DNA from: Adhaeribacter radiodurans
GTDB taxonomy: Bacteria; Bacteroidota; Bacteroidia; Cytophagales; Hymenobacteraceae
Reading direction: 5' to 3'
NCBI RefSeq assembly: GCF_014075995.1
Contig: NZ_CP055153.1
Coordinates: forward strand, 6,696,001 to 6,760,000
Length of the DNA stretch: 64,000 nucleotides
The stretch's first letter is position 1, and every line of letters begins with the position of its first letter. Shown here one piece after another: positions 39,699 through 57,340 of the stretch. Position numbers and translations under genes: made by a program. The notes under the pieces were generated by a model. The model made no database searches. It was not told where the DNA came from and worked only from the letters and a program-made list of their open reading frames with translations.

Positions 39699-39786
39699 AG
39701 AGAGGTGTCCGAGTGGTTGAAGGAGCACGCCTGGAAAGTGTGTATACCTCAAAAGGGTATCGAGGGTTCGAATCCCTTCCTCTCTG
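39699..39786 (+). tRNA. tRNA-Ser(GGA)
   Basis: 88-nt cloverleaf with long variable arm. The acceptor stem is AGAGAGG (39699-39705) paired with CCTCTCT before discriminator G at 39786. The D region begins TGTCCGAGTGGTTGAAGG, the anticodon GGA is at 39733-39735 in loop CTGGAAA, and the T-arm contains GGTTCGAATCC. The long variable arm (TACCTCAAAAGGGTA) confirms serine. The CCA end is not encoded. It sits at the left edge of the accessory region and is a plausible integration site. Confidence 0.96.
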
Positions 39787-39791
39787 CACAA

Positions 39792-40011: not shown

Positions 40012-42600
40012 TTATTCTACTACTTTCGATTTAACTTCCGCATACCATTTAGGAAACTTTTGCAAGAGTCTATTTTTAAGATCATCATTTGAAAGCTGTT
40101 GGACATCATTTAACTGAAAAAAGCTTACATTGCTAGAAACAGCTTCTAATTTTTCCAAAAAGGTGAACTGGGCTCCTAGACCAACAAATTGCCAAAAAAT
40201 CGAAGTATCTCCATTTTCCTGGAAATACTTCAGCATTTGTTCATTTGAAGCTGTACTATTATTCTCTCCATCTGTAATTAGAATTACAAACACTATTTTA
40301 TTTATTTTCGCATCAATATAGTTTTTATGAATATCCGCAATAGGTGCATAAATATCAGTTCCATTCATCTCATACTTATTTAATATTTCTTTTTCTATAA
40401 AATTTTGGTAATTATGTTTAGTAACCTTTATTGGCAATCTAACGGACTTTTTCTCGAATAAAAATAAATCAATGTTTTGCTCTGATGTTAAGCCTTTGCT
40501 TATTGCAAAAATCATGTTTATGACTTTTTGGATTTTTCCTGAAGAATAAAGTTTATAGCCTTCGTTCTTACCATAGTTCTCCATTGAATTTGAATAATCT
40601 AAAGCAAAAACCAGTTGAAGGTTCTCAAACATATATCCTTGTGCTGCGGAACTTGGAATCGCAAAGGAAGTAATAGGACTTAATGTTTTAGGGAGCTCAA
40701 TCCTGGCAGAATTATGTTGAGTAAAATTTGGAGGTACCCCAACAACATTAGTCGGCTTATTATTAGAAATTATAATGGGTGATGCATGGGTTTTTTTAGA
40801 AGTCTCATTAACAGTAAGTAAGGGGCTAGAAACTTTCGATTCAGAAATATTTTTCTCAGATATTAAAGATGATTTATTACTCTGGAGATTTGCTTCTGAA
40901 TCGTTAATGGATGCTACTTTCTCAACTGGAACTTCTTCAGAAATATTTTTAATTATTTCACTTTTATTATTAGTATCTTGCTCTTTAATTTCTTTACTTA
41001 TTATTTCGGTTGTTTCCGTAATTAGGTTCTCAGCTACAATTTTTTGTACTTCAATAATGGAGTGGTCTAAAGCTACTTCTGGAGCAATCTGCAATTTATA
41101 GTTCTCTGCACCTGTATTTTCTGGATATAATTTTAATGCCTGAGAAATTAATTCATCTGAATAAATTACATTAGAATTCTTAACCTCTCTTGCTTTAAAT
41201 TCTACATCTTTAGAAAGATAATTTCTATATGCCATTCTTTCGAATCGATGAATTTGGGATGCATCAAATGGTACTATAGGTATTTGCACCTCCCCTAACT
41301 TGCTTTTCAATTTGTCAAACTCACCTAAAAATGCTTTGACAAGATGATGTTTGCCCTTTAAAAGCATTATATTTTCATTATTGATACTGTCAGCATAGTA
41401 TGTCCAGTTATATGAACCATTAAAGATTACATCTTCATCAATAATGCAAAATTTATGATGCATCAATGCTGGATAATCACTGAAATATAATTTTCCATTC
41501 AAACTAACGAACTTCTCGAACGGCAAGCCATACTCCCAATTATTTATATAATCGTTTATTATTATTAATTCAACCTTAACACCTTCTTCTAACTTGTTAC
41601 AAAGCATATCAAACAATTCAGCATTTGTAAACCAGGCTACAGCTATCTGGATAGATTTTTTTGCCTTCCCAAGCTCTTGTAAGATTAATCTTTTAATACC
41701 TGAAAAGTATACTTCTTCTATCTCTGTTGTCTTTTTAACTTGGTTGTCTAAAACCAAATAGCCGTTTTCACTTCCTTTGCACCTCTGTAAAATGTTATGT
41801 TTTACTGCATCATCTCCAGTTTCAAATTTATCTTTAAGAATATCAGTATCACAATAATCTGTTATACCATCAAACCAAAGCTTAAACTTATAATCGTTGG
41901 TAGATTTTTGGTAAAAACTAGCAGTAAGGTCTTCATAGCCTACTACAGATTCTTTCTTATTATATTCTAATAGAAATTTAGCTTGATCATAAACTTCTGC
42001 ATTTTCAATTGTTTTAATGCCTTCAACTAAAATTCTAAATAAATTTACATTGTATTCAGGTGTGTTAGCATGAAAAATAGTTTGCAAAAAGGAGAAAGTT
42101 GTGCTATTAGGTTCTAATGGTATTGAAGGAACCAAAACATCATTTTCTATTACTTTAGCGTTATTGCATTCTTTAGGAAGCCTACTTTTGATGTTAGCTA
42201 TTTTGATTTTTATCTCGTCTTCGAGTGTTCTATTTTCTATATTTCGGATTCTTCGAGAAATTTTTTGAATTAAGCTTGGTTTTGCATACCTAAAAATTAA
42301 TTCTAAAACAGGTGTATCATAATTCAACAATTCTTTAATTATGTAATTTTCACAATTCAAGTTGCAGTTAGTAGCATCTTGCCTATCACCTGTTTTGGTT
42401 TTTTTTAAATTTATTCCAAAGGTTACCAATTTATCTTCACCAATAAAATTAATTTGGTCCTTACTAGCTAAAGCATTTGGATGAAAAAAGGTCCGCTCTA
42501 TTTGAGGGCTTTCAATCCAGCCAGTATAATATTTGTTGCTTTGAGCCTCTCTCTCAGTTACTTTTTTAAGTACTCCGATATACAATTCAGTATTGATCAT
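40012..42600 (-). CDS. Cold-shock-like / PLD nuclease / TerF-like vWA fusion protein
   Basis: 862 residues. Residues about 1-85 resemble a cold-shock-type OB fold (TGWIESPQIERTFFHPNALA, then DKLVTFGINLKK). A helical region follows. About residues 300-440 form a phospholipase-D domain with a complete H-x-K-x4-D motif (HHKFCIIDEDVIFNGSYNW) and one copy only, so it may dimerise. A Ser/Glu/Lys-rich linker leads to a C-terminal von Willebrand A domain (about 658-855) with MIDAS elements DYSNSM, NGTDIYAPI and ITDGENN and the TerF-like end LLQKFPKWYAEV. I infer a nucleic-acid effector with a metal-dependent protein-binding module. Noticeably AT-rich. It follows the helicase-nuclease gene by 82 bases, on the same strand. 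Confidence 0.85.
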   Translation of the reverse strand: MINTELYIGVLKKVTEREAQSNKYYTGWIESPQIERTFFHPNALASKDQINFIGEDKLVTFGINLKKTKTGDRQDATNCNLNCENYIIKELLNYDTPVLELIFRYAKPSLIQKISRRIRNIENRTLEDEIKIKIANIKSRLPKECNNAKVIENDVLVPSIPLEPNSTTFSFLQTIFHANTPEYNVNLFRILVEGIKTIENAEVYDQAKFLLEYNKKESVVGYEDLTASFYQKSTNDYKFKLWFDGITDYCDTDILKDKFETGDDAVKHNILQRCKGSENGYLVLDNQVKKTTEIEEVYFSGIKRLILQELGKAKKSIQIAVAWFTNAELFDMLCNKLEEGVKVELIIINDYINNWEYGLPFEKFVSLNGKLYFSDYPALMHHKFCIIDEDVIFNGSYNWTYYADSINNENIMLLKGKHHLVKAFLGEFDKLKSKLGEVQIPIVPFDASQIHRFERMAYRNYLSKDVEFKAREVKNSNVIYSDELISQALKLYPENTGAENYKLQIAPEVALDHSIIEVQKIVAENLITETTEIISKEIKEQDTNNKSEIIKNISEEVPVEKVASINDSEANLQSNKSSLISEKNISESKVSSPLLTVNETSKKTHASPIIISNNKPTNVVGVPPNFTQHNSARIELPKTLSPITSFAIPSSAAQGYMFENLQLVFALDYSNSMENYGKNEGYKLYSSGKIQKVINMIFAISKGLTSEQNIDLFLFEKKSVRLPIKVTKHNYQNFIEKEILNKYEMNGTDIYAPIADIHKNYIDAKINKIVFVILITDGENNSTASNEQMLKYFQENGDTSIFWQFVGLGAQFTFLEKLEAVSSNVSFFQLNDVQQLSNDDLKNRLLQKFPKWYAEVKSKVVE

Positions 42601-42682
42601 TTCTAAGATTGTAATTGATTAATTTTATTTGGTTGGAATGATTATTGTGGCATTTCGATTTATTTTAATTGAATAGATTTCT

Positions 42683-45600
42683 TTAAAAACCCACATCACA
42701 AACTTCCTCAATTTGAGCTATAATTCTTTCAATGGCTATGGAGTCAATGCCACCGTTTTCACTTTCTGAAGTTATAAATAGGTTTTCGTTTAATGCGAAG
42801 CCATTCTCTTGATAGAACTTTAGTTTCTTTTCCCAATCTTCCCGATAACTAGGCACAGCCATCATTCCTAAGTGTTCCAAAATAACTAGGTCTCCGGCGG
42901 CATCAATAAATGAAAAATCCGGTATACGCTTTTGCCCATTTTTGCCTTTAAATTCCCTTTCGTATTCAAATTTTATCCCTTTTTCCAACAGCATATTGGC
43001 AATAATTACTTCTGATTTACTGCGGACCAAGAGCCCTTCTTTTTTGGTTTTATGAATAAGACCAGCTGCAAATGGTATTTCTGATTTACTTTCCCGAACA
43101 GCTGATTTAAAAAGATGGGTATTACGTTTGGCAGTAGTGGAAAACTGAGGTTTTGATAAATTTATAAGCCAATGAGGGTCAGTTCCCTCCACCAATAATA
43201 TTAACTTTTTCTTGGCCCGGGTTAGGGCTGTATAGATTAATTCTCTAGAAATAATTCGTCCAGTTTTGGGAATAATCAGGAACACATACTCAAAATCGCT
43301 GCCTTGGCTTTTATGAACGGTAATAGCATAAGCTAATTCAATATTAGAGCTCTCATTTTCCGCTTGTCCCTGTCCCTTATAACCGAATGTTACTTTTTCG
43401 TCAATACCTGCAAAAGACACATTAGCAAAACCATAATTTAAACCTTGTACTAAGCCCAATTGTCCATTAGAAAGCTGAAATTCTTTATCCCCTGGAAAAC
43501 AATTCTTTTTCTCGTTAATGGTTTGGATTACTTTATCAAATAAGCCTATTTGGTATTCGCCTATATTGATACCCCCTTGAATACCTTTTCTAAATTGCTG
43601 TTGGAATTTTCTGTTTAAATTAAAAGAACCCCAGTACGGCGCTTTTACCGGACTTAATAATTGGAAGGCCTCAATTCGTTGGGTATCGATTTCCGGAATA
43701 CTTTTTCCTTTTTTTTCAATATAGGAAATTCCTAAAAAGGCATTCAGCTTATCATAATCCTTAGCATGGTCAAGGTTAAGAACGTTTACCAGGGTTTCAT
43801 TTAATTTAGTAATGAGTTCTTCTTCATTTTGCCAGCAGCTCAATTGCAAATCATTCAGCTGAGTATTGTTTCCCAGCTTAGAGAAAATAATATCAGCATT
43901 TTTAGAAGGTTTCATACCAGAAAACCAGGAAGCTAGCATTAAGGTATCAGAATCTTCGCCTTGTGCTGTTCTTACTATCTCTTTAATTCTGGCCAAGGAA
44001 GAGGCTGCCTTAAAATCCGGATCAGTTTCTTCCAGTGTTTCCAGTTTAGCACAAATATCGGCAAATGGTCTACCAGCACCAATGGGTGGTAATTGATAAG
44101 GGTCACCCACTAATATAATCCGCTTGACGTGTGCCTGATCCAAAGCCTGGAAGATGGCAAAGAGGTCATCTTCCGTCAACATGGAACATTCATCAATGAT
44201 TACATTTTGTTCCCCTTTATATTGGCTTTCCCCGGTAAATTTTGGTTTCATCCGATCCCAGTCAAAACGTTTCTGACGGGTTAAAAACTGGGCGATTGTA
44301 TAAGCTTCTCCTCCCGCCATTTTTCCCAATTTTACCCTGGCCTTACCGGTGGGAGCTAATAATAATATGCCTTCACTTTTTAAGGCGCTACAGCTAAATA
44401 GTGCACCCATTACAGTAGTTTTTCCCGTACCGGCTGGGCCATGTAGCACGGATAATTTCCGGCTAGTAATAAGTTGTAAAGCTCTTCTCTGATCGTGTAA
44501 AGCAGCAACATGTCTGTTGTTTCCCGGGTCAAAATCTTTACCGTTTTTCCGGATAGTATTTACTATCAGTTTTTCCCAATCTTCTCCTAATGGCTCTAAT
44601 TCCCTTTTCGCTCGGGCCAAAACTATTTTCCTTAAAGAGCTCTCAATTTTTTCATAAATTTTTAATTGCAATGCCTGGATATCATCAGTAGAAAGATGAT
44701 TCAGTTGTTCTTTAAGGAATTCGATGTTTGCGGCAATATAGTTTGCTGGGATTTGTACCGGTCTTCTTAAGTTTAAAGTATTAAGAGTTTCGGTAATTTC
44801 ATTTACCGCGAGTAATGTATCTCCGTTTTCGGCGGCCCTTTTTAGAATATCTATTATAATGGCCCTTAATCTTCTAGGGTCTAATGGAGACTTAACTAGT
44901 TGCGGTTCTTTGGGTACATATTCGCCCTGAATAGCTTTATCTTCAAATAGCCCGTTGTCTATGGTTTCTACAGCAATCGGGTAATGCTCTTGATCACCAG
45001 TATCTTTTTCCGCAATTAGGTAAGGGTTAGTTAATAGTTCCGAGTCGGTGCAGGTAAAATCTAGTTTCCTGCGGCTGGTTAGCTCAAACCAATTTTTTAT
45101 TTGCTTTTCTGTTAACTCAAGCCGCGATAAAAGTTGTAATAATTCTTTTCTTTCCCCACTTTCACTGAACCAGGTATCCTTAAGAAAAGGTAAGTCTTTT
45201 GAATAAGTACGTGGCCTTATGGTTAGCCTTCCGGACAATACATCTTCCCAGGCATTCCAAGGATTATCTTTTATGCCTAAGATTCCCTGCGCACGTAAGT
45301 CTTCTTCCAAGCTATGGCCGTACTGAAAACCAATAGCTTGAAGAGCATTAGCAAAGGAAGGGAAAGGCCCCATAGCTTCTTTTACCTGGCCAACCTGCCG
45401 ATCTATCCACATCAGGTGGTTATCCCAAAAACCAGAGGCAATTCCGTGTTCCTTTATGCGTTCAACGATGCTGCGCAGCTTACCCAAAACCACTAGAACG
45501 GTACTATTATTTAGCCATTCGGTGCCGTGGGTAAATTCTTCTATGGCTTCCTGCCGGGTAGCTGTTTCCTGTAGAGTGAGTTTTATTTCATCCAGTAAAT

Positions 45601-46375
45601 CATTTTTTGTCTTCTTTCCATCTTTGGTTTTAAGTACGTAATCTTCCGGCAAAGCTAAATAGTCGTGGTATGGCAGCAAAATACCTTCGCTGGTTGGGTC
45701 ATCCGGGCGGATCCCATGGGTGATTAACCTATCCCAAAGTGGATAGGTATAGTCAGCAACTGAATCGTACTTTATAATGGATGATTTCTTTTTAATAATA
45801 CCAATCCCAACAATTAGTCTCCGGCTATCTTCATCAACTGGATTAGCTCCCTTTACATAAAAAATGCTTAGTGATTTATCTTCTGTAACAGGTTCAAAAA
45901 AGGTCTTCAAAATGGTTTCCTGTCTTTCCCGGCCATATACCCATGCCGAAGGAAAAGGACTGTCTGCATCTTTGGGATTTCCTGGATATAGATTATCTAT
46001 TTGGGCCTGGTTTCCTCGGAGCATCCACCAAAACGGAACAGTAAAGGTTGTAAAAGGAGGTATTTCGACTGTTGTAGGTCGTAAATTCAAGTGCGGAATA
46101 TCCTTTCCACCACGTTTATTATAGGGATGATTGAATTGCCTTTTATATGATAACTCGTTCATAAAGGCCCCACCTTCGGCTTTACAGGGCGGCAATTCGT
46201 GAAGCTTTAAGTTTGACCAGGACCGATTTGCAAGTACTTCTTCCGCATTTTCATTTTTTTCCTGATATATTCGAGGAAGGTGAATACAAAAAGTGTTTCC
46301 GGCCGGGTGCTGGCATATAGTACCATTCCATTTGTTATCGTGCCACGCAACTCGGTTTGAAATATGTTTTATCAT
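42683..46375 (-). CDS. RecD-like SF1 helicase fused to PD-(D/E)XK-like nuclease
   Basis: 1230 residues. Residues 1-150 form an uncharacterised start containing Cys/His motifs (WNGTICQHPAGNTFC, HELPPCKAEGGAFM). The SF1 helicase core has Walker A HGPAGTGKTTVMGALF near 648, Walker B VIIDECSMLTEDDLF near 723, GDPYQLPPIGAGRPF, and the late motif YAITVHKSQGSDFEYVF near 1021 plus YTALTRAKKKLILL. The C-terminus has a nuclease-like pattern RSKSEVIIANMLLEKG, PDFSF near 1151 and VILEHLG near 1165. It probably unwinds and degrades DNA. First gene of a leftward pair, divergent from the Mod operon. Confidence 0.88.
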   Translation of the reverse strand: MIKHISNRVAWHDNKWNGTICQHPAGNTFCIHLPRIYQEKNENAEEVLANRSWSNLKLHELPPCKAEGGAFMNELSYKRQFNHPYNKRGGKDIPHLNLRPTTVEIPPFTTFTVPFWWMLRGNQAQIDNLYPGNPKDADSPFPSAWVYGRERQETILKTFFEPVTEDKSLSIFYVKGANPVDEDSRRLIVGIGIIKKKSSIIKYDSVADYTYPLWDRLITHGIRPDDPTSEGILLPYHDYLALPEDYVLKTKDGKKTKNDLLDEIKLTLQETATRQEAIEEFTHGTEWLNNSTVLVVLGKLRSIVERIKEHGIASGFWDNHLMWIDRQVGQVKEAMGPFPSFANALQAIGFQYGHSLEEDLRAQGILGIKDNPWNAWEDVLSGRLTIRPRTYSKDLPFLKDTWFSESGERKELLQLLSRLELTEKQIKNWFELTSRRKLDFTCTDSELLTNPYLIAEKDTGDQEHYPIAVETIDNGLFEDKAIQGEYVPKEPQLVKSPLDPRRLRAIIIDILKRAAENGDTLLAVNEITETLNTLNLRRPVQIPANYIAANIEFLKEQLNHLSTDDIQALQLKIYEKIESSLRKIVLARAKRELEPLGEDWEKLIVNTIRKNGKDFDPGNNRHVAALHDQRRALQLITSRKLSVLHGPAGTGKTTVMGALFSCSALKSEGILLLAPTGKARVKLGKMAGGEAYTIAQFLTRQKRFDWDRMKPKFTGESQYKGEQNVIIDECSMLTEDDLFAIFQALDQAHVKRIILVGDPYQLPPIGAGRPFADICAKLETLEETDPDFKAASSLARIKEIVRTAQGEDSDTLMLASWFSGMKPSKNADIIFSKLGNNTQLNDLQLSCWQNEEELITKLNETLVNVLNLDHAKDYDKLNAFLGISYIEKKGKSIPEIDTQRIEAFQLLSPVKAPYWGSFNLNRKFQQQFRKGIQGGINIGEYQIGLFDKVIQTINEKKNCFPGDKEFQLSNGQLGLVQGLNYGFANVSFAGIDEKVTFGYKGQGQAENESSNIELAYAITVHKSQGSDFEYVFLIIPKTGRIISRELIYTALTRAKKKLILLVEGTDPHWLINLSKPQFSTTAKRNTHLFKSAVRESKSEIPFAAGLIHKTKKEGLLVRSKSEVIIANMLLEKGIKFEYEREFKGKNGQKRIPDFSFIDAAGDLVILEHLGMMAVPSYREDWEKKLKFYQENGFALNENLFITSESENGGIDSIAIERIIAQIEEVCDVGF

Positions 46376-46752
46376 ACGAAAGAGAACTATTTTAATTAAA
46401 AGTTAAATCAGGTAATTGAGCAATGGACTAACTGGTATATTCAGTTTGTCAGCTAATATTTATAATATTTGGCTGTTGCTTGGGCTTTTATAGCGAGAAC
46501 AGACTAATAAATTTATGCAACTCAAAACAATAAATATGCCTTTTGATAAATATATAGTATCTAAAATACAAAATTCTTGAAATTAGCTATTTTAATAGTC
46601 TTTTTTTAATCCTAGTTTTAGGATGATTTATTGATGTTCTTAAAATTAAGCTACTATTTAAATCCAATTACCTTGAATTACTCGAAACCTTATGTCGTCA
46701 TACAAAAAAAGAGAGTAATTACTATTTTAAATTCTCTACCTCAATTTAAATT
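46376..46752. promoter_or_regulatory. Divergent control region between the two island operons
   Basis: About 377 very AT-rich bases separating the leftward helicase/PLD-vWA pair from the rightward Mod operon. It must carry both promoters. I see no clear operator palindrome, small RNA or small gene; AT-richness suggests silencing by nucleoid proteins, which is an inference. Confidence 0.5.
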
Positions 46753-48669
46753 ATGAATATAATAGATACTGACATAATCGAGCGGATGGATATGGCCAGC
46801 CTGGATCTTGTGAGCAATAATTTTAAAAAGCTTGCCGCACTATTTCCAAACTGTGTTACTGAAACTGCTGAAGGCAAAGTAATAGACTTTGATTTACTGA
46901 AACAGGAATTAAATTACCAAATAGTAGAAGGCACCAAAGAACGGTACCGATTGGAATGGCCTGGTAAGCGTGAAGCTATTGTAACCGCAAATTTACCAAC
47001 CAATAAAACGATACGTCCAATTCACGAAGATTCGGTTGATTTCAACAACACTGAAAACTTGTATATCGAAGGTGATAATTTAGAAATTCTTAAGATACTG
47101 CAAGAAAGTTATTTGGGTAAAATAAATATAATCTATATTGATCCTCCCTATAATACAGGAAATGATTTTATTTATTGGGACAATTATATACAAGGAAAGG
47201 AGGTATATAAGGAAGGAAGTGGTCAAAAAGATGAGTTAAATCAACGCTTAGTAGCAAATCCAGAGACAGCAGGTCGTTATCACTCTGATTGGTTGACGAT
47301 GATGTACCCTCGATTGAAATTAGCATATAATTGTCTATCAGACGATGGACTATTGGTTATATCAATTGATGATAATGAAGTTTTCCAATTAGGCAAAATA
47401 CTTGATGAAATATTTGGTTCGACTAATCGCCTGGCTTGTGCACCTTGGCTTTCAGAAGCAAGTGGAGGTAAAGAAAAAACAGGTTTAAGGACAGGACATG
47501 AATATCTTCTAATCTATTTCAAAAAGTCTTCAGAAAATATTTCACAAGAAGAAAGATCAGCAGGTGAATTAAATTTACGAGATTCGAAAGGAGCCTATAG
47601 AAAAGGGCGCGAATTAATGAAATGGGGAGGAACATCGCTTCGAGAGGATCGACCAAACCAATTTTATGAACTTCCTAATATGGAGGGCGAAATGATTTTG
47701 CCCTATAGAAATGATGGTAAAGCAGGTCATTGGAGGTGGGGCAAAAACAACCCCGAAATTTTAAAAGCATTTGATGATAAATCCTTTTTTCATTGGGAAT
47801 TAAGGCCTTTTAATGAAGGAATTTTAGTAAATGGTTTTAGAGAAAGGTGGGTTCCTTATGAAAAGATTAGGGACTCGAAGAAGGCAACAGGCTGGAGTAC
47901 TTGGTTGGATAAATTTGGATCAAATGCAGATGGGACTAGGGAGTTGATAAATCTTTTTGGTTCTAAGGTTTTTGACACTCCAAAGCCGTTTCAATTAGTA
48001 AAATGGATAGTTTCCTTGCATAGTAATGAAAATGCTCTTATAATGGATTTTTTTGCAGGGTCTTCGGCTACAGCCCAAGCTGTTATGCATCTTAATGCTG
48101 AAGATAGTGGTAAGCGCAGGTTTATCTTGGTTCAACTTCCTGAAACAACAAACGAAAAAAGTGAATCTTTTAAAGCTGGATATAAGAACATCTGTGAAAT
48201 AGGGAAAGAACGCATTCGGCGGGCAGCAAAGAAAATAAAAAAAGAAACAGGAGCGGATATTGACTATGGCTTTCGTGTTTACCGGCTGGATGAAAGTAAT
48301 ATGCAGGATGTATATTATAAGCCGCAGGAGTACACACAGGCAACCTTAGACCTTTTTACTGATAACGTAAAACCTGACAGAACTGCCGATGACCTTTTAG
48401 CGCAAGTGATGCTGGATTGGGGGTTGCCCCTTTCTTTAAAAATCGAAAAAGTGATTATTGCAGACAAACAAGTTTTTAAAGTAGCCGCTAATTCTTTATA
48501 TGCGTGTTTTGATAAAGGCATTGACGAAGATTTTGCTAAAGCCATTGCTCAAGAGGCTCCTTTACGCATTGTTTTCCGGGATAGCGGCTTTAAAGATGAT
48601 ACTGCCAAAACTAATGTGAAGCAGTTGCTGAAACAACTAAGTCCGGAGACTGAAATGAAAGTAATTTAA
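46753..48669 (+). CDS. mod: Type III restriction-modification Mod methyltransferase (N6-adenine, beta class)
   Basis: 638 residues. The catalytic motif IV comes first (INIIYIDPPYNTGNDF, DPPY at about 130) and the SAM motif I later (MDFFAGSSATAQAVMHL near 434), the order of beta-class methyltransferases. It should methylate one adenine strand in a short asymmetric site and also supply specificity to Res. Length is in the usual range; the central part (about 210-400) is the target-recognition region and is less conserved. Three bases separate it from the AlbA/HATPase gene, giving a tight operon. Confidence 0.94.
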   Translation: MNIIDTDIIERMDMASLDLVSNNFKKLAALFPNCVTETAEGKVIDFDLLKQELNYQIVEGTKERYRLEWPGKREAIVTANLPTNKTIRPIHEDSVDFNNTENLYIEGDNLEILKILQESYLGKINIIYIDPPYNTGNDFIYWDNYIQGKEVYKEGSGQKDELNQRLVANPETAGRYHSDWLTMMYPRLKLAYNCLSDDGLLVISIDDNEVFQLGKILDEIFGSTNRLACAPWLSEASGGKEKTGLRTGHEYLLIYFKKSSENISQEERSAGELNLRDSKGAYRKGRELMKWGGTSLREDRPNQFYELPNMEGEMILPYRNDGKAGHWRWGKNNPEILKAFDDKSFFHWELRPFNEGILVNGFRERWVPYEKIRDSKKATGWSTWLDKFGSNADGTRELINLFGSKVFDTPKPFQLVKWIVSLHSNENALIMDFFAGSSATAQAVMHLNAEDSGKRRFILVQLPETTNEKSESFKAGYKNICEIGKERIRRAAKKIKKETGADIDYGFRVYRLDESNMQDVYYKPQEYTQATLDLFTDNVKPDRTADDLLAQVMLDWGLPLSLKIEKVIIADKQVFKVAANSLYACFDKGIDEDFAKAIAQEAPLRIVFRDSGFKDDTAKTNVKQLLKQLSPETEMKVI

Positions 48670-48672
48670 ATA

Positions 48673-50328
48673 ATGGCGCTTCCGGTAAACATAGAAGCAT
48701 TAGTACATGGCAAAACAATTGAATGGGAACGTCTGGAATTTAAGCAGGGCTGGAACCCGGAAGATATTATTCACTCCTTGTGTGCTTTTGCCAACGACTT
48801 GCAGCATTGGGATGGTGGTTATATAATTGTCGGAGTTGCAGAAAATAATGGTCAGCCCGTTCTGCCTCCAGCTGGCTTACAGCAAAACCAAATAGATGCT
48901 ATTCAAGGAGAAATTGTGCAGCTTGGTCATAAAATACAGCCAAACTATTTCCCGATAACCCAGCCCTACTTATTGCAAGACAAGCATATTTTAGTTCTTT
49001 GGTGCCCTGCAGGTGATAATCGGCCTTATACTGCTCCAACTACTTTAGGTAGCGGAGCACAACGGCAATCTTATGTCCGGGTGGGCTCAAGGAGTATTAT
49101 TGCTAGGGATGAGAACTTAAGACGGTTACAGGAGTTAACCGCCCGAATTCCTTTTGACGACCGTGTAAATAACCAGGCAACGCTTCAGGATCTTGACTTA
49201 GGTTTAATTCAGGCGCATTTGCAGGAAGTTAAAAGCGATCTGTTTGCTGAAAGTACTACCATACCTTTTAAAGATTTATGCCGGAGCATGCTTATTGCCA
49301 AAGGGCCTTACGAAGACTTGCGCCCTGTAAATGTAGGCTTATTGTTCTTTTCAAAAGAGCCTGACCGCTTCTTTCCCAGAGCCTGGATTGAATTGGTTTG
49401 GCATAAAGATGGTTCAGGAAAAAATTACACCGAACATTATTTTAAAGGCCCGCTGCAAAAGCAGCTTAGAGATACACTTTCTTTCTTAAGAACCAATATT
49501 ATTGGCGAACAGGTAATTAAATATCCGGATAAAGCAGAAGCTGACAGATTTTTTAATTTCCCTTATAATGCCCTTGAAGAAGCGTTGTCTAATGCTGTTT
49601 ACCATAAGAGTTATGAATTAGGCTCTCCCATTGAGGTTCAGGTTTGGCCGGATAAGATAGAGATACTCAATCATCCAGGGCCGGTACCCCCAGTAAATGC
49701 TACAATATTGAGTACTCATAGAAGAATAGTAGCTAGGGAGTATCGAAATAGACGAATTGGAGATGTACTGAAAGAACTTAGGCTTACTGAAGGGCGTGGT
49801 ACTGGTTTACCTACTATCTATGATGCTATGGAAGCTAATGGTTCACCTGTGCCTATTTTTGCTACTGATGAACAAACTTATGTGCTGGTAACACTTCCTG
49901 TACATCCTCAAGCTAATGCTAGTAACATAGCTAGTAACAATGTAAGTAACCAAGTTAATACCCATAGTAAAGCTAATGCTATTACCTTTAGAAGCTTAGA
50001 AGATATTGTTGCTTTTAGTACTGACGCTGGTAACCAAGCTAGTAACGGAGTTAGTAACGAAGCTAGTAATCAAGTTAAAGCTATTCTTAATGACCGAGTT
50101 CATGATAGGGTTAAGGAGATGCTCTATATTCTAACTAATAGGATAAAAAGTGCTGAACTATTTAGAAGAATGGGATTAACAAATCAAACAAAGAATAGAG
50201 TCAGGTACTTAGATCCTTTAGTTGAATTAGGCTGGGTAGAATTAGAATACCCTAAAGAGAAAACAAGTCCTAAGCAGCGGTACCAAATAACTGATGCGGG
50301 GAAAAGAATATTGAATTTGATAACTTAA
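48673..50328 (+). CDS. AlbA_2 / HATPase_c_4 protein with tetrapeptide repeats
   Basis: 551 residues. The N-terminus (about 1-130) is an AlbA_2 (Schlafen-like) domain: IEWERLEFKQGWNPEDIIHS, then CAFANDLQHWDGGYIIVGVA. A HATPase_c_4-type ATP-binding part spans about 290-400 (ALEEALSNAVYHKSYE and LTEGRGTGLPTIYDAM). Between about 415 and 475 lie two blocks of (A/V)-S-N-x tetrapeptides. The C-terminus is a winged helix (ELFRRMGLTNQTKNRVRYLD). Such proteins are often loosely called RecG-like, but the helicase motors are absent. It lies between mod and res in one operon, so an accessory or regulatory role in defence is likely. Confidence 0.85.
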   Translation: MALPVNIEALVHGKTIEWERLEFKQGWNPEDIIHSLCAFANDLQHWDGGYIIVGVAENNGQPVLPPAGLQQNQIDAIQGEIVQLGHKIQPNYFPITQPYLLQDKHILVLWCPAGDNRPYTAPTTLGSGAQRQSYVRVGSRSIIARDENLRRLQELTARIPFDDRVNNQATLQDLDLGLIQAHLQEVKSDLFAESTTIPFKDLCRSMLIAKGPYEDLRPVNVGLLFFSKEPDRFFPRAWIELVWHKDGSGKNYTEHYFKGPLQKQLRDTLSFLRTNIIGEQVIKYPDKAEADRFFNFPYNALEEALSNAVYHKSYELGSPIEVQVWPDKIEILNHPGPVPPVNATILSTHRRIVAREYRNRRIGDVLKELRLTEGRGTGLPTIYDAMEANGSPVPIFATDEQTYVLVTLPVHPQANASNIASNNVSNQVNTHSKANAITFRSLEDIVAFSTDAGNQASNGVSNEASNQVKAILNDRVHDRVKEMLYILTNRIKSAELFRRMGLTNQTKNRVRYLDPLVELGWVELEYPKEKTSPKQRYQITDAGKRILNLIT

Positions 50329-50330
50329 GA

Positions 50331-52361
50331 ATGAAATTACAATTTAAAGAACAAGACTTTCAAGTTCAAGCAGTAAAAGCGGTGGTGGATTGCTTTGCAG
50401 GACAACCCTTAAAAACTAATCGCTTTACACTAGAACGCAGCAAAGCCCTTATCAAAAAGGCCAAACAAGCTGCTATAGGTGCAGGTGTCTTAGATTTTGA
50501 AGTGGAAGAAGAAATTGGTTATCGTAACAGCCCCCTGCAAATACTTGAAACGCAAGTAATCAAAAACATACAGGAAGTACAGAAAAGAGATGACCTGCAC
50601 GAAAGCCAGCAAATTGAACGTCCTAAAGGAGTAAGACTAGGCTATAACCTTACAGTAGAGATGGAAACAGGTACGGGTAAAACTTATACTTATATCCGTA
50701 CCATGTACGAACTGCACAAACATTATGGCTGGAGCAAGTTTATTGTAATTGTTCCGAGCATTGCCATTCGGGAAGGAGTGTACAAATCTTTTCAAGTTAC
50801 TCAAGACCACTTTCAGGAACTGTACGCCCATAAAATTAATCCTTTTATCTACAATTCCGGCCGCCCGCAAGATATAGAGAATTTTGCTTCTGATAGTCGC
50901 ATAAGTGTTATGATTATCAATACTCAGGCATTCAATGCCAGTGGTGCAGATGCCAGAAGAATTTATCAGGAACTTGACCAATTTGGTACCAGAAAGCCCA
51001 TTGATATAATTGCGCAAACCAATCCTATCCTGGTCATTGACGAACCACAGTCTGTGGATGGAGAGAGGACCTTGAGAAGTATGCAGGATTTTAATCCCTT
51101 GTTCACGCTGCGGTATTCAGCTACTCACAAAGTAGAGTACAATAAAGTGTACCGGCTAGATGCTTTAGATGCCTATAACAAACGACTTGTAAAGAAAATA
51201 CAAGTAAAAGGGATCAACCTCAAAGGGTCTACTGGCACAACCGGATATCTTTATTTAGAACAAATTAGCTTGAGTACCACCAAGCCCCCTTTTGCGATAG
51301 TTGAGTATGAAAAACGGGCGGGCGAAGGTGTGAAAAAGGTTCGCCAGAAATTAAGTGAAGGTGCCAATCTTTACGAGCTTTCAGGCAATATGCCTGTTTA
51401 TAAGAATCAAACGATAACAGAAATAAACGGCTATCTTAACAAAATTGTGGTTGGCGGCCAAGATATATTTACGGGAGATATTCTCAACAATAAAGATGAA
51501 AATGCTTTCCGAAGGGTGCAGATTCGGGAAACCATCATGTCGCACCTGCAAAAAGAAAAGCAGCTTTTTACAAAAGGGATAAAAGTACTTTCCCTTTTCT
51601 TTATTGATTCGGTGGAAAATTACCGGGTTTATGACGAAGCAGGCAATCAGAGTTTAGGTGAATACGCGAAAATCTTTGAAGAAGAATACAACAAAGTACG
51701 GAACGATTACTTAGACCTATTTCAGCAGGAATATAATGACTACTTGAAGGAAACAGATCCAGGCAGTGCCCATAAAGGTTATATGCCCATTACCTATGGT
51801 GAGTACCTGAAACGGGATGATGCGAATCGGGTCCATGAAGGTTATTTTTCTATTGATAAGAAAAATAAGATGATAGATCCTTCGGTAAAACGGGGAAGTG
51901 AAGAATCAGACGACATTTCAGCTTTTGACCTTATCATGAAAGATAAAGAACGTTTATTAAGCTTTGAAGAACCAACCCGCTTTATTTTTTCACACTCTGC
52001 TTTAAAAGAAGGATGGGATAACCCTAACGTATTTCAGATATGTGCTTTAAAAAATGCTGAAAGTGGCAGCCAAACCCGCAGAAGGCAGGAAGTAGGTCGT
52101 GGTATGCGTTTATGCGTAAGCAAAAACGGGACTCGTTTAGATTTTGAAGTTGTTGGTGACCAGGTGCATGAAATAAACAAACTCACAGTTATTGCCTCGG
52201 AGAGCTATGAAGCCTTTGCCAAAGGTTTGCAAACCGAAATTGCTGCAACCCTTAAAGATCGTCCTCAAAAAGCAGAAGTGGAGTATTTTGTTGGCAAAAT
52301 GGTAACCAATGAAAATGAAGAAGAACGCCGCCTTACCGAAGATCATGCTTGTAAAGCTTAA
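50331..52361 (+). CDS. res: Type III restriction Res subunit, helicase part (frameshifted)
   Basis: 676 residues carrying the SF2 helicase of Res: Walker A METGTGKTYTYIRTMYEL near 108, Walker B VIDEPQSVDGERT near 235, LRYSATHKVEYN and RRRQEVGRGMRLC near 583. In the intact enzyme it translocates after Mod binding and activates cleavage. The frame ends abruptly at TAA 52359 after HACKA, while the sequence continues in frame +1 as KLNKLLYKHDIIDDND. One extra A in AAA at 52353-52355 explains it. A full protein would be about 1040 residues. Two bases after the AlbA gene. Confidence 0.9.
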   Translation: MKLQFKEQDFQVQAVKAVVDCFAGQPLKTNRFTLERSKALIKKAKQAAIGAGVLDFEVEEEIGYRNSPLQILETQVIKNIQEVQKRDDLHESQQIERPKGVRLGYNLTVEMETGTGKTYTYIRTMYELHKHYGWSKFIVIVPSIAIREGVYKSFQVTQDHFQELYAHKINPFIYNSGRPQDIENFASDSRISVMIINTQAFNASGADARRIYQELDQFGTRKPIDIIAQTNPILVIDEPQSVDGERTLRSMQDFNPLFTLRYSATHKVEYNKVYRLDALDAYNKRLVKKIQVKGINLKGSTGTTGYLYLEQISLSTTKPPFAIVEYEKRAGEGVKKVRQKLSEGANLYELSGNMPVYKNQTITEINGYLNKIVVGGQDIFTGDILNNKDENAFRRVQIRETIMSHLQKEKQLFTKGIKVLSLFFIDSVENYRVYDEAGNQSLGEYAKIFEEEYNKVRNDYLDLFQQEYNDYLKETDPGSAHKGYMPITYGEYLKRDDANRVHEGYFSIDKKNKMIDPSVKRGSEESDDISAFDLIMKDKERLLSFEEPTRFIFSHSALKEGWDNPNVFQICALKNAESGSQTRRRQEVGRGMRLCVSKNGTRLDFEVVGDQVHEINKLTVIASESYEAFAKGLQTEIAATLKDRPQKAEVEYFVGKMVTNENEEERRLTEDHACKA

Positions 52362-53457
52362 CAAGTTGCTTTACAAGCATGATATAATTGACGATAATGA
52401 CAAGATAACCATAGAAGGCAAAGAGCTAATTGAACAGAATAAAATACCTTTGCCTGCAAACCTAGAACCATTCAGGGATTCAATAAATAACCTTCTAAAA
52501 TCTATTTACACCGGAGAAGCATTTAAACCTGAAAATGAAAGACAAACCATAGTACTCAAAACTAACCACAACTTCAGGAAAAAAGAGTTTCAAGCCTTAT
52601 GGGAAAAGATTAATCTTAAAACAATTTATGAGGTAAAGTTTGAAACTGATAAGCTAATCAATGACAGCAAAACTCGTATTAATGCTCAACTCAACATTGG
52701 CGACCGGGTGTATGAAGTAAAAACTGGAGAATTGCAGGATGGTACCAGAGAGCAGATGCAGGAAGGTAGTTTGATAAAAGAATCCCAGCGCCAATACTTG
52801 AAAATCAATAACGACCTTTACACCAATACTGTTTATGACATGGTAGGTGAGATAGAAGTACGTACCAATCTTACCCGCAGTACCATTGTATCCATTCTCA
52901 AGGCAATTAAGGAAGAGAAATTTTTACTGTTTCGCAAGAACCCGGAAGAGTTTATTGCTAAATGCAGTAAACTTATTAACGAGGTGAAAGCAGGCTTAAT
53001 AATTAACAACATTGTCTATCACAAAATCGATGAAAGGCATGATGCCAAAACAGTGTTCACTAATGATAAGTCTGCCCTTCGTAATTCCGATCTTCTAAAG
53101 AAACACATATACGACTATCTCACTTCGGATTCTAAAATAGAATCCAATTTTGCAGAAGCATTGGAGAACAGCACAGAAGTGGTGGTATATGCCAAGTTGC
53201 CCAAGAGCTTTTACGTATCTACGCCAATAGCCAATTACAGCCCCGATTGGGCCATAGTATTTGATAAAGACAAGATTCGTCAAATCTATTTTGTAACTGA
53301 AACCAAAGGTTCGGATTCGGATATGGATTTAAGAGAAATTGAAAAATTGAAAATCCATTGTGCTACTGAACACTTTAAAGAAATAAGTGGCAATGAAGTG
53401 AAATTTGAAAAAGTAAGTAGTTATGAGAAGCTTATGGATATTGTGCAGGTAAAATAG
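52309..53457 (+). CDS. Type III Res subunit, C-terminal endonuclease part (after frameshift)
   Basis: This frame continues the Res protein from about 52354 (KLNKLLYKHDIIDDNDKITI onward); bases before that are the shadow of the first part. It holds the nuclease: NYSPDWAIVFDKDKIRQIYF then VTETKG, a PD-x(n)-E-x-K site near the end. An ATG at 52345 (MLVKLN) could restart translation, so a separate nuclease fragment might be made, but helicase and nuclease would be unlinked. The helicase fragment and this one together match the usual Res length. Probably a pseudogene pair unless frameshifting occurs. Confidence 0.85.
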   Translation: MKMKKNAALPKIMLVKLNKLLYKHDIIDDNDKITIEGKELIEQNKIPLPANLEPFRDSINNLLKSIYTGEAFKPENERQTIVLKTNHNFRKKEFQALWEKINLKTIYEVKFETDKLINDSKTRINAQLNIGDRVYEVKTGELQDGTREQMQEGSLIKESQRQYLKINNDLYTNTVYDMVGEIEVRTNLTRSTIVSILKAIKEEKFLLFRKNPEEFIAKCSKLINEVKAGLIINNIVYHKIDERHDAKTVFTNDKSALRNSDLLKKHIYDYLTSDSKIESNFAEALENSTEVVVYAKLPKSFYVSTPIANYSPDWAIVFDKDKIRQIYFVTETKGSDSDMDLREIEKLKIHCATEHFKEISGNEVKFEKVSSYEKLMDIVQVK

Positions 53458-53461
53458 TTAT

Positions 53462-56400
53462 ATGAAACTCATTGATAATGTTAACACCCGCCTTGGGGAT
53501 GATTTAAAACAGGAGATAAAGAAAGGAAGTAGGCTAGCCATTGCTGCCTCTTCATTTTCTATCTATGCTTTTGAAGCTTTAAAAAAGGAGCTTAAAGATA
53601 TAGATCAACTCCAGTTTATTTTTACTTCTCCTACTTTTATAGAAGAAAAGCTACAAAAGGAATCTAGAGAATTTTACATTCCACACATCTATAATGAAGG
53701 CCATTTATGCGGAGGCGAGTTTGAATTACGATTAAAGAATGACTTGAATCAAAGAGGCATTGCTAAGGAGTGTGCAGATTGGATAAGAGAAAAAGTAATT
53801 TTCAAGTCTAATAAACACGCTAACCTTCCACTTCATGGAATGATTAATGTAAACAATAACGGAAGCGGCGGTGCTGCTTATACCAATATAAGTAGCTTTA
53901 CTACAGCTGATTTAGGTATTACCCATAAACTGGGGTTTCCAACTTTAATTCAAAAGATTAATTATCCTGAAAGTAAAGCCTATCTAGATTGGTTTGGACA
54001 AGTTTGGGAGAAAGAGGAAAGCCTTACAGATGTAACGAAGAAAGTTCAGGAATACTTTGAAAACGCCTACCGAGACAATAGCCCTGAATTTATATACTTT
54101 ATTACTCTTTACAATATCTTCAGTGATTTCCTGAGTGACATCTCCATGGATAACCTGCCAAATGATGATATAGGATTTAAAAATACTGAGATATGGAGTA
54201 AGCTCTATAATTTTCAGAGAGACGCTGTTATTGGTGCTATTAATAAGCTGGAAAAATACAATGGTTGTATCATTGCCGATAGTGTAGGGTTGGGTAAAAC
54301 GTTCTCTGCGCTTGGAGTCATTAAATATTATGAAAAGAGAAACAAGGATGTATTGGTGCTTTGTCCTAAGAAATTAGAAGATAACTGGAATACATTCCGG
54401 CACAATGATAAAAACAACATATTTGCCAAAGACAGATTCAGGTATGATGTACTGTTCCATACTGACTTAACCAGGGAAAGAGGAGCCAGTAATGGCAGAA
54501 ATCTCGAAAGCGTTAATTGGGGAAACTATGGCCTTGTAGTAATAGATGAGTCTCATAACTTTAGAAACAACAATACTATTGTTAGTCGGGAAAACCGTTA
54601 TCAAAAGTTATTAAGAAAGATTGTGCAGGAAGGTATTGAAACCAAAGTGCTTATGCTTTCCGCAACTCCGGTAAATAACCGTTTTAATGACTTAAAAAAT
54701 CAATTGGCAATCGCATATGAAGGTGCTACAAGTAATATTGATGATAAACTTGGAACAGAGCGAGGGATTGATTCAATATTTAAAAGGGCTCAACAAGCAT
54801 TTAACAATTGGTCAAAGTATGCTCCCGAATCCAGGACGACGGAAAAACTGTTAGAGATGTTAGATTTTGATTTTTTTGAAATTTTAGATAGTCTTACAAT
54901 TGCCCGGTCAAGAAAACATATTACTACTTATTATGATACAACGGCTATTGGTAAATTCCCTGCCAGAAACAAACCGATTTCCATTTATAGTGCTTTAACT
55001 ATAGAAGAAGGAGTGAACTTTAAGACTATTGCAGAACGCCTAACACTATTGAACTTATCTGTATACTCTCCATTAAACTATATTTTACCGAGCAGAGTCC
55101 AGCATTATGCAGATTTATATGATAAAAAAGCAAAGTCAGCTACTTTTACTCAGTTAGACAGAGAGAAAGGTATCCAAATATTAATGCGGATAAATTTATT
55201 AAAACGCATTGAAAGTTCTGTTGATTCCTTCCGCTTAACACTCACAAACATATTAAATCAGATCCAAGAAGCCTTAAATGCAGTATCCAGAGGTGATTCT
55301 GAAGCTTTTTCTGGCGTACAATCCGGCAGTTCGGAGGAGATAGACTGGGAAGCAGATTGGGGAGATGAGGAAAACATTATAGGAGGTAAAGTAAAAGTCC
55401 GGATTGCAGATATGGATATTACTCGCTGGCAAGAAGATTTGTCGGTCGATATGCAGATCTTGAAAGGTTTACTACAGGAAGTAGAAGGCATCAAGGGTAA
55501 AAATGATATAAAGCTGCAGCATCTTAAAGGAATAATTTCGAATAAAATTAAAAATCCCATAAACACGGATAATAGAAAAATATTAGTATTTACCGCTTTT
55601 GCAGATACTGCTAACTATTTATATGATAGCTTAAAAGACTGGCTTAAGAATGAATATAACATTAATACGGCTTTGATAACTGGAGATAAGCGCCAGTGCA
55701 CTACCAAGCAGATACCTACCGACCTGAATGCCTTGTTGACCTGTTTTTCTCCCAATTCTAAAAGTAAAGCTTTATTACTTCCTGATATTAAAGATAGTAT
55801 TGATATTCTAATCGCTACAGATTGTATATCAGAAGGACAAAATCTTCAAGACTGTGACTACTTGGTAAATTATGATATTCACTGGAATCCTGTTAGAATT
55901 ATTCAGCGTTTTGGGCGCATTGACCGGATTGGATCCCAAAACACTAATATTACTATGGTAAATTTCTGGCCTGATGTAACACTAGATGCTTATATAAATT
56001 TGAAACAAAGAGTTGAAAACAGGATGCTTATTAGCAACATGGCCAGCACTGGTGACGACAATATTCTTAACTCTGATGACAAAGACTTAGAATATAGGAA
56101 GATACAGTTAAGGAAATTACAGGATGAGGTTGTTGACTTAGAAGATTTAAAGGAGGGAGTTAGTATTACTGACCTAGGTTTAAATGACTTTAGGGTTGAT
56201 TTATCAAACTTCGTTAAAACATATGGGGAGCTAAAGAATATTCCTGATGGACTGCATGCAGTGACTCAAGCGAATGCCAATATAGAAAAAGGAGTAATTT
56301 ATGTGCTTAAGAATATAAACAACTCTGTTAATATTGATAAACTGAACCGGCTCCACCCATATTACTTGGTCTATGTAAAGGAAAATGGAGATCTGATTTA

Positions 56401-56686
56401 TAACCATGTTGATGCAAAAAAAACCTTAGATGTAATTAGACTCCTTTGTAAAGGAAAAACGGAGCCTTTAATGTCTCTTTGTAAACAATTTAGTCAGGAA
56501 ACAAAGGACTACTGTAAAATGACCACCTATTCTCAGTTGTTGCAAAAGAGCATTAGCTCGATTTTAAAAACCGAAGAAGAAAAAGAGGTACTAAGTTTGT
56601 TCAAAGCAGGAGGTACAACAGCTTTGCGAGGTGAAATAAAAGGTGCTGAGGATTTTAAATTAATTTCGTTTATAGTTATTAAGTAA
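53462..56686 (+). CDS. SNF2-type helicase with degenerate N-terminal PLD domain
   Basis: 1074 residues. The N-terminus (about 1-170) follows the PLD-like fold (RLAIAASSFSIYAFEALKKE, then LPLHGMINVNN and YTNISSFTTADLG). The H-x-K position reads HGM, so the catalytic lysine is missing. The SF2/SNF2 motor has IIADSVGLGKTFSALGVIKY near 270, VVIDESHNFRNN near 360, MLSATPVNNRFNDLKNQL and IQRFGRIDRIGSQN near 814. It probably tracks on DNA without unwinding. It follows the res fragment by four bases and directly abuts the DUF4391 gene, forming one operon with mod. Confidence 0.9.
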   Translation: MKLIDNVNTRLGDDLKQEIKKGSRLAIAASSFSIYAFEALKKELKDIDQLQFIFTSPTFIEEKLQKESREFYIPHIYNEGHLCGGEFELRLKNDLNQRGIAKECADWIREKVIFKSNKHANLPLHGMINVNNNGSGGAAYTNISSFTTADLGITHKLGFPTLIQKINYPESKAYLDWFGQVWEKEESLTDVTKKVQEYFENAYRDNSPEFIYFITLYNIFSDFLSDISMDNLPNDDIGFKNTEIWSKLYNFQRDAVIGAINKLEKYNGCIIADSVGLGKTFSALGVIKYYEKRNKDVLVLCPKKLEDNWNTFRHNDKNNIFAKDRFRYDVLFHTDLTRERGASNGRNLESVNWGNYGLVVIDESHNFRNNNTIVSRENRYQKLLRKIVQEGIETKVLMLSATPVNNRFNDLKNQLAIAYEGATSNIDDKLGTERGIDSIFKRAQQAFNNWSKYAPESRTTEKLLEMLDFDFFEILDSLTIARSRKHITTYYDTTAIGKFPARNKPISIYSALTIEEGVNFKTIAERLTLLNLSVYSPLNYILPSRVQHYADLYDKKAKSATFTQLDREKGIQILMRINLLKRIESSVDSFRLTLTNILNQIQEALNAVSRGDSEAFSGVQSGSSEEIDWEADWGDEENIIGGKVKVRIADMDITRWQEDLSVDMQILKGLLQEVEGIKGKNDIKLQHLKGIISNKIKNPINTDNRKILVFTAFADTANYLYDSLKDWLKNEYNINTALITGDKRQCTTKQIPTDLNALLTCFSPNSKSKALLLPDIKDSIDILIATDCISEGQNLQDCDYLVNYDIHWNPVRIIQRFGRIDRIGSQNTNITMVNFWPDVTLDAYINLKQRVENRMLISNMASTGDDNILNSDDKDLEYRKIQLRKLQDEVVDLEDLKEGVSITDLGLNDFRVDLSNFVKTYGELKNIPDGLHAVTQANANIEKGVIYVLKNINNSVNIDKLNRLHPYYLVYVKENGDLIYNHVDAKKTLDVIRLLCKGKTEPLMSLCKQFSQETKDYCKMTTYSQLLQKSISSILKTEEEKEVLSLFKAGGTTALRGEIKGAEDFKLISFIVIK

Positions 56687-57340
56687 ATGAATACTTCCTC
56701 TTTACCTGTTTCAACTTTGGTAAATAAATATATTCCAAAAAATGCCTTCGATACATATACTAATACGAAGCAAAAACGATTATTTATAGAAGTAATAGAT
56801 AAAATAAGATGGACGAATAAGTTGTCCTCTCAAACAATTAATTTACCCGGTAAAGAAATTCAAGAAATTCAGATATTTGAAATTGATCTTAAAAAGAATC
56901 AATCAATTTCTGAGGTCCTTACTATAATCAATAAAGCAATTCCTTATCACATTATTTTTATTATAAATTATAATAATCAAATAATGCTTTCTGCTTCACA
57001 GAAGCATCCTCACCCAACTAATGACCACCAATCGGTTATTGATTGGTCCTTTTCTTCAGATTGGTATGAGAAAGATTCTGATAAATATCAGCTAAAGTTA
57101 GAGCAGAGCATAGATCATGTTTTCTTAGATCTTTGTAAACAATTATCTGGAGTTAAAAGAATTAAAAATAAAAGCATTGCTGATGTAATACAGCATGAAA
57201 TGAGGTTAAAAGAACTTGAAAGCTCAATAGAAAAGCTGCAATCAGCTATTAGAAAAAATAGTCAATTCAACAAAAAGGTGGAGTTAAACCTTGAGCTTCA
57301 GAAAAAGTTAGCAGAGCTGGAGACTTTGAAAAACCTTTAA
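56687..57340 (+). CDS. DUF4391 domain protein
   Basis: 217 residues. The first 150 residues fit DUF4391 (IRWTNKLSSQTINLPGKEIQ, then EIQIFEIDLKK and PYHIIFIINYNNQIMLSA). The C-terminal 60 residues are a coiled coil (MRLKELESSIEKLQSAIRKN, LNLELQKKLAELETLKNL). ATG at 56687 abuts the SNF2 stop with no gap, so the two are translationally coupled. The family repeatedly accompanies PLD/SNF2 helicases in restriction-like loci, to my knowledge without a defined activity. Last gene of the operon. Confidence 0.85.
   Translation: MNTSSLPVSTLVNKYIPKNAFDTYTNTKQKRLFIEVIDKIRWTNKLSSQTINLPGKEIQEIQIFEIDLKKNQSISEVLTIINKAIPYHIIFIINYNNQIMLSASQKHPHPTNDHQSVIDWSFSSDWYEKDSDKYQLKLEQSIDHVFLDLCKQLSGVKRIKNKSIADVIQHEMRLKELESSIEKLQSAIRKNSQFNKKVELNLELQKKLAELETLKNL

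Follow-up and report, generated by a model that had tools for sequence, protein, structure and literature searches.

A RecD2-like helicase and a cold-shock/PLD/vWA protein as putative auxiliary nucleases beside a type III restriction system in Adhaeribacter radiodurans

Two neighboring genes of Adhaeribacter radiodurans, here termed P0001 and P0002, probably encode two independent auxiliary (backup) nucleases carried on a methyltransferase-based defence island, and not the two parts of one defence system. The genes lie in a window of 64,000 nucleotides (contig NZ_CP055153.1, positions 6,696,001 to 6,760,000), in which all coordinates below are counted. This reading draws on the domains and conserved motif residues of the two proteins, on the genomic company kept by their relatives, and on the absence of co-travel among the loci sampled.

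The locus and its island setting

On the best reading, a type III restriction island starts at a tRNA-Ser gene, and P0001 and P0002 are attached to it. The features of the region are as follows:

39699..39787, + strand: tRNA-Ser(GGA), left edge of the variable region
40012..42600, - strand: P0001, 862 aa, with a probable CSD, a helical region, PLD (HKD), linker and TerF-like vWA
42683..46375, - strand: P0002, 1230 aa, RecD2-like helicase with nuclease-like C-terminus, matching PADLOC PDC-S68
46753..48669, + strand: type III methyltransferase, mod (PADLOC PDLC03634, E 1.3e-215)
48673..50328, + strand: AlbA_2/HATPase_c_4 regulator-like protein (Pfam)
50331..52361, + strand: type III restriction subunit, ORF 1 of a split gene (PDLC03647, E 1.2e-210, best stretch at profile 1-467)
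52309..53457, + strand: type III restriction subunit, ORF 2, in another frame, endonuclease domain (RE_endonuc, E 1.1e-35; PDLC03647 624-986)
53462..56686, + strand: SNF2-type helicase, PADLOC C3a139 "HKD+Snf2" (E 3.5e-129)
56687..57340, + strand: DUF4391 protein (E 1.1e-52)

The restriction-gene neighborhood after a tRNA that had been proposed for this locus is thus confirmed, with mod and res both present next door and res occurring as two overlapping ORFs in different frames. Two congeners are alike for ~50 bp past the tRNA and then diverge from each other over the stretch compared; the tRNA end was found only once in the window. Comparison with two congeners yielded no right edge of the island, which is blurred by rearrangement, as indicated by a right flank gene displaced to 0.6-1.0 Mb from the left flank gene in the two congeners and by sequence that follows the tRNA in G674 but is found elsewhere in the A. 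radiodurans genome of the window.

Domain composition of P0001 and P0002

The domains recognized in the two proteins, all encoded on the - strand, are listed here with the evidence for each:

42352..42600, - strand: P0001 residues 1-83, probable cold-shock/OB-like domain (alignment with L005; model)
41281..41712, - strand: P0001 residues 297-440, single-HKD PLD nuclease domain, H381/K383/D388 (PLDc_2 306-431, E 4.5e-21)
40024..40623, - strand: P0001 residues 660-859, TerF-like vWA with MIDAS (PF10138, E 1.5e-30)
43166..44500, - strand: P0002 residues 626-1070, SF1B helicase core (GPAGTGKT, DECSM, GDPYQLPPIG, VHKSQGS, YTALTRA)
42776..43063, - strand: P0002 residues 1105-1200, PD-(D/E)XK-like nuclease region (E1122, D1153, E1167)

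Judged by its profile match, P0002 is the already catalogued PADLOC single-gene candidate PDC-S68, since PDLC05065 spans residues 2-1222 of its 1230 residues (E 0) and no tested feature differs; the name PDC-S68 was not found in the open-licence literature searched. Its assignment as a RecD-like helicase holds, given the SF1B motifs and a match to the RecD2 model TIGR01448 (E 4.6e-61) that scores 206.9 bits, short of the curated equivalog cut-off of 500. P0002 also differs from RecD2/RecD in carrying an additional N-terminus with conserved Trp/Cys residues and the C-terminal nuclease-like region. The latter had been described as PD-(D/E)XK-like and is a candidate for such a nuclease domain: E1122, D1153 and E1167 are invariant in 15 sequences, and the model shows a fitting helix-strand-strand-strand-helix order. 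PADLOC matches to this region are weak, and it gave no Pfam match and no convincing PDB sequence match. The fold-search list for P0002 was filled by helicases and never reached the C-terminal region, which makes the absence of a nuclease from it uninformative. The N-terminus likewise had no Pfam match and is modeled with low confidence within a whole-protein model of mean pLDDT 63.2 and pTM 0.45.

P0001 is less described than P0002. Searches of Pfam, NCBIfam and PADLOC returned domain-wise matches, none over the whole protein, and its domain arrangement was not found described in the open-licence literature searched. Of the candidate pair originally called undescribed, the helicase loses that label. 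The HKD motif predicted near residue 380 is present as a single copy (H381/K383/D388) within a PLD fold that resembles Nuc, NucT and Zucchini in the PDB, both by sequence and by fold. The predicted C-terminal TerF-like vWA domain is equally well founded, with PF10138 scoring 107.3 bits against a cut-off of 29.4, a MIDAS that is intact (residues judged by eye) and RGLG/BON1-type vWA folds returned by the fold search. Lack of a PLD or vWA fold would have counted against the original prediction; both were recovered in the structure model. HKD residues are kept across the P0001-type proteins, as are those of the MIDAS except in L005, which has no vWA. Residues 523-655 form a linker with pLDDT <50 in the predicted model. 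The cold-shock-like N-terminus is probable through the relative L005, residues 7-69 of which match Pfam CSD (E 3.2e-12) where the P0001 N-terminus aligns, and five strands appear in the model of the P0001 domain with low confidence; L005 is the only relative so matched, Pfam CSD having no direct match in P0001, L017 or L004.

Relatives and their genomic company

Matches to P0001 were found in 3/395, 6/390, 12/399 and 3/395 genomes in four samples that overlap and differ in threshold. The N-terminal helical region and the PLD domain were matched together only in the genome of the window, in G166, and in G770 and G771, the genomes of L004 and L005, which were found by a low-sensitivity pattern scan. 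All other matches begin at query or model position 239 or later, approximately where the PLD domain starts, and were left out as members. The C-terminal part varies among the four P0001-type proteins, being a TerF-like vWA in three and an unnamed domain without a Pfam or PDB match in L005; a stretch similar to the latter occurs in 16 plasmid records, and the surroundings of two of these and of three TerF-vWA matches held nothing decisive. A phage origin was rejected. For P0001 the phage and viral collections yielded partial matches or nothing: among the matches listed from the phages collection (10 records), none covers more than 24% of the query, and viral contigs gave PLD-part relatives only (6 loci) or nothing.

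Each of the four P0001-type genes has a DNA methyltransferase no more than about 6 kb away, namely type III mod in the window, type I hsdM at L005, IIG and N6_N4 methyltransferases at L004, and DUF1156_MTase with DUF499 at L017. A strict two-model test (PF02384 and PF01555, <=10 kb) found this association in 3/4, where 0.04 to 0.05 were expected (P from about 4e-6 to 7.5e-6), a probability that is post hoc because the link was first noticed on these same four loci. The gene in G166 was missed by this test, its nearest match on the contig being 187 kb off, and its DUF1156_MTase neighbor was detected by a different model. Defence genes also cluster in general, which counts against the reading.

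P0002 relatives have restriction systems as frequent neighbors, which ties the PDC-S68 helicase-nuclease, uncharacterized so far, to such systems: restriction or DNA-methyltransferase genes lie near the P0002-type gene in 12/22 loci, as a raw count (the window, L019, L020, L024, L026, L035, L036, L037, L075, L077, L078 and L080). A DrmD-like helicase and a TmtA-like protein occur at three loci (L021, L034, L076), and other defence-type genes at three more (MkoA-like in L022, Drt3b in L023, NACHT by annotation in L031); the neighbors scanned at the remaining four (L025, L032, L033, L079) include no nameable defence gene, L079 comprising only 4.2 kb. Neighbors were called by PADLOC/Pfam scans, or from record annotation for L035 and L037, and the restriction calls for L077 and L078 come solely from phmmer matches with restriction genes found at other loci. 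Contig ends truncate L023, L077 and L079, and the relative in L034 is spread over three ORFs. Eight plasmid records cover >=80% of P0002, of which seven were used and the eighth, unannotated, was left out. As a lone query P0002 found no relative in viral contigs, while a P0002 alignment found at least 79 distinct loci; the six best were used, five covering nearly all of P0002 and L079 covering residues 531-1217, and the 73 others, all within residues 243-1115 and mostly helicase, were set aside. In the phages collection, two short faecal records that lack annotation also carry P0002 relatives; they stand outside the 22 counted loci.

Alternative readings and known systems

In the original prediction the two genes formed a candidate defence pair, an idea to be given up if they proved rarely adjacent elsewhere, and this is what the sampled loci show. 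No P0001 match (phmmer E<=1e-5 or 1e-6) lies near any of the 21 P0002 relatives outside the window, and a P0002 search of three genomes with P0001 relatives came up empty (E<=1e-20), a result that is weak alone, yet in other genomes the same query picked up relatives with as little as 30% identity. A conserved pair was rejected on these neighborhood and whole-genome searches. It is therefore very unlikely that the genes form one two-gene system, in which the helicase would expose single strands for the CSD-PLD-vWA protein to cut. Their shared strand and 82 bp spacing, with no terminator-like site between, would allow co-transcription, but their G+C contents differ (30.7% vs 39.6%) and P0002 relatives can instead be arranged like an operon with restriction genes (L019, L026, L078). 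The gap contains one promoter-like match; sites of this kind turn up about as often as chance predicts (29 against an expected 24.6), and the same is true of a second promoter-like count (2 found, 3.34 expected). That 40012-57340 is one machine, with both genes belonging to the type III system, is distinctly unlikely. P0002 and mod do adjoin, divergently and with 377 bp between, and a P0002 relative adjoins type III-like genes in L036; however, relatives of each protein occur elsewhere with type I, IIG, ISP or DUF499/DUF1156 systems, and therefore neither is type III-specific.

TerF-like vWA and CSD are domains of stress proteins, and P0001 might process RNA or DNA as a house-keeping or stress protein (Ter-type stress response) and lie in islands by chance. 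PLD-part relatives without CSD or vWA (L018, L038-L043) agree with this, as does the placing of TerF vWA in sub-membrane structures (PMC7824862). We consider it unlikely, given the methyltransferase neighbors at 4/4 P0001-type loci and the rarity of the CSD-helical-PLD body, which was found only in its own genome and G166 in each of two overlapping samples of 395 and had no match in two congeners. A lipid-acting phospholipase D, as superfamily membership and weak cardiolipin-synthase matches might suggest, is hardly credible for a protein with a single HKD motif, top matches that are mostly nucleases and a relative, L005, with a CSD-type N-terminus.

For two independent auxiliary nucleases, we infer nuclease activity, substrate, trigger, dimerization and antiviral function as follows. 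P0002 would load where restriction or phage replication has left a DNA end or a single-stranded gap, its RecD2-like motor would unwind the DNA, and its PD-(D/E)XK-like domain would then cut. P0001 probably acts as a homodimer, because Nuc/NucT/Zucchini-type single-HKD nucleases do. Its cold-shock domain would present single-stranded RNA or DNA to the HKD site. Attached through a ~130-residue and probably flexible linker, the metal-binding vWA would gate activity or dock a partner. Possible, if doubtful, is a broader proposal that CSD, helical region, HKD nuclease and an exchangeable C-terminal domain define an undescribed accessory defence nuclease family, which would attach to several methyltransferase-based system types, with the CSD sensing single-stranded nucleic acid and the C-terminal domain acting as a switch.

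Several known systems come close. P0001 shares the fold and HKD motif of Nuc/NucT/Zucchini and adds CSD-like, helical and vWA parts around them. PLD nucleases are described as accessories of the modification-based systems DISARM (DrmC) and Dpd (DpdK) in PMC12458937; profiles of these two match P0001 weakly, in the PLD part only (4.3e-6 and 1.9e-5), and no DISARM or Dpd set was identified among the nine proteins scanned. Auxiliary PD-(D/E)XK and HKD nucleases stand beside methyltransferase-centered defence in BREX and BREX-related loci (PMC12839542, main text), and L017 adjoins DUF499/DUF1156. The HKD nucleases described there are fused to BrxL or SNF2 helicases, unlike P0001, and that main text contains neither "cold shock" nor "CSD". 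If our reading is right, the backup-nuclease idea widens from BREX loci to restriction-modification islands generally. CoCoNuT restriction systems contain CSD, PLD nuclease and Ter-type vWA (TerY), on separate proteins around a McrB GTPase and not all in one CoCoNuT type in the portion of PMC11090510 considered; in P0001 one chain would combine a nuclease with a domain that binds nucleic acid and a metal-binding domain of the Ter type. Among the nine proteins at 40012-57900 (Pfam E<=1; PADLOC matches listed), no McrB GTPase/McrC and no BrxC/DUF499-type ATPase was found; the latter is present at L017. P0002 and its seven neighbors (42683-57900) gave no Ter match, and P0001 has in common with TerF of tellurite/Ter operons a vWA-TerF-like domain above the Pfam cut-off.

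Layout and left edge of the island

The original prediction's observation is right. The two genes that it had joined as a candidate undescribed defence pair are complete minus-strand ORFs separated by 82 bp and are oriented divergently from a plus-strand type III restriction-modification locus.

39699-39787: tRNA-Ser, left edge of the island, where congener matches to the window stop
40012-42600, minus: P0001, 862 aa, with cold-shock-like (CSD), helical, single-HKD PLD and TerF-like vWA regions
42683-46375, minus: P0002, 1230 aa, helicase with a PD-(D/E)XK-like C-terminus
Type III locus, plus, in order: mod, an AlbA_2/HATPase_c_4 protein, split res (50331-53457), an SNF2-type helicase (C3a139; 53462-56686), DUF4391

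In two congeners, the main matches (~70-94% identity) run from a window position of ~32 kb, the start of the fetched congener stretches, to base 39787, the final base of tRNA-Ser, with none further. G+C content is 44.6-46.3% in three flanking genes, 30.7% in P0001 and 39.6% in P0002. The congeners diverge from one another ~50 bp past tRNA-Ser. The tRNA-Ser end at 39787 looks like a rearrangement point, because the sequence 3' of it in genome G674 has an 86% identical copy at a different site in the genome that contains the window, and past it the window matches neither congener. Immediately right of tRNA-Ser, 39916-39938 resembles by eye the 3' part of another tRNA, with one copy within the window. 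Two overlapping minus-strand ORFs (57988-59087) that flank the defence genes on the right resemble by eye an IS3-type transposase pair.

P0002, a catalogued candidate, and its neighbours

The proposed two-gene pair is not supported, as no co-occurrence was found outside the window. Among 22 P0002 loci (the window, eight whole-genome, seven plasmid and six viral-contig), none besides the window had a P0001 match nearby, and a P0002 query that worked in another search found no match in the three genomes with P0001 relatives. Within this sample the two genes are rarely adjacent elsewhere, the outcome that the original prediction had named as failing the pair idea. Nor is P0002 undescribed: it matches PADLOC PDC-S68 over its full length (E 0) and is therefore, by sequence, an already catalogued candidate defence protein. 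PDCs are putative candidates from guilt-by-embedding, mostly unvalidated, according to PMC12988326, whose available text does not name PDC-S68.

The helicase core is RecD2-like with intact motifs. In a family alignment of 15 sequences, including the window's, the N-terminal W/H/C pattern is largely retained, and three acidic residues of the PD-(D/E)XK-like C-terminus are conserved. The putative PD-(D/E)XK nuclease assignment is unproven, since Pfam, PDB sequence and fold searches all gave no confirmation.

Within fetched flanks of up to 10 kb, restriction or DNA-methyltransferase genes lie near 12 of the 22 loci, a plain count.

Genes near P0002 and its relatives, by locus
Type III-like: window, L036
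Type I-like: L019, L024, L026, L037, L075, L077, L078
IIG: L020
ISP: L035
Eco57I-like: L080
DrmD-like helicase and TmtA-like protein (three further loci): L021, L034, L076; sacsin-type ATPase domain at L021 and L076
Other defence-type genes: L022, L023, L031
No nameable defence gene (4/22): L025, L032, L033, L079

At L032, on a Vibrio fluvialis plasmid, the next annotated gene encodes a Qnr-family pentapeptide repeat protein.

P0001, its setting and relatives

P0001 is a rare domain arrangement, of which no description was found in the open-licence literature searched. Its genomic setting is consistent: a methyltransferase gene accompanies the P0001-type gene at all four loci, at 4.5 kb in the window, 2.2 kb at L004, 1.3 kb at L005 (measured to the matched domain) and ~5.8 kb at L017. 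The two methyltransferase families of the strict test (PF02384, PF01555) have only 2-4 matches per genome in these four genomes, yet three of the four P0001-type loci lie <10 kb from one, against 0.04-0.05 expected for P0001 loci (P ~4e-6 to 7.5e-6, a guide rather than a test, since these loci themselves suggested the hypothesis). The sole miss, G166, which carries L017, arises because its DUF1156 methyltransferase escapes both models at threshold.

The genome that contains the window also encodes a PLD-TPR protein (G000:C2:1709448-1709954, in L042) that is 41% identical to P0001 residues 297-468, and PLD-TPR and PLD-only relatives in other genomes lack CSD and vWA matches. Searches of Pfam and the PDB gave no match for the C-terminal domain of the relative from Mucilaginibacter (L005:9758-11593), yet 16 plasmid records contain similar stretches: one, in Hymenobacter canadensis, is 47% identical, and another lies in a Paenibacillus protein encoded next to a phospholipase D family gene.

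Possible roles in modification-based immunity

P0001 and P0002 are most likely backup nucleases accompanying modification-based immunity; such nucleases are described for BREX loci in the available text of PMC12839542. The substrates of P0002 would be DNA ends or gaps. In P0001, the CSD would hold single-stranded nucleic acid, the HKD site would cut, and the vWA domain would serve as a metal-dependent switch or a dock. We infer activity, substrate, trigger and antiviral effect alike. Domains of these kinds (CSD, PLD and Ter-type vWA) are also reported in CoCoNuT systems, there on separate proteins (available part of PMC11090510).

The type III res occupies two overlapping ORFs in different frames, which between them match the two halves of one profile, and may be inactive, purposely split or a sequencing artefact. 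In addition to P0001, the island may encode another HKD nuclease, since the adjacent SNF2-type helicase matches the PADLOC HKD+Snf2 model.
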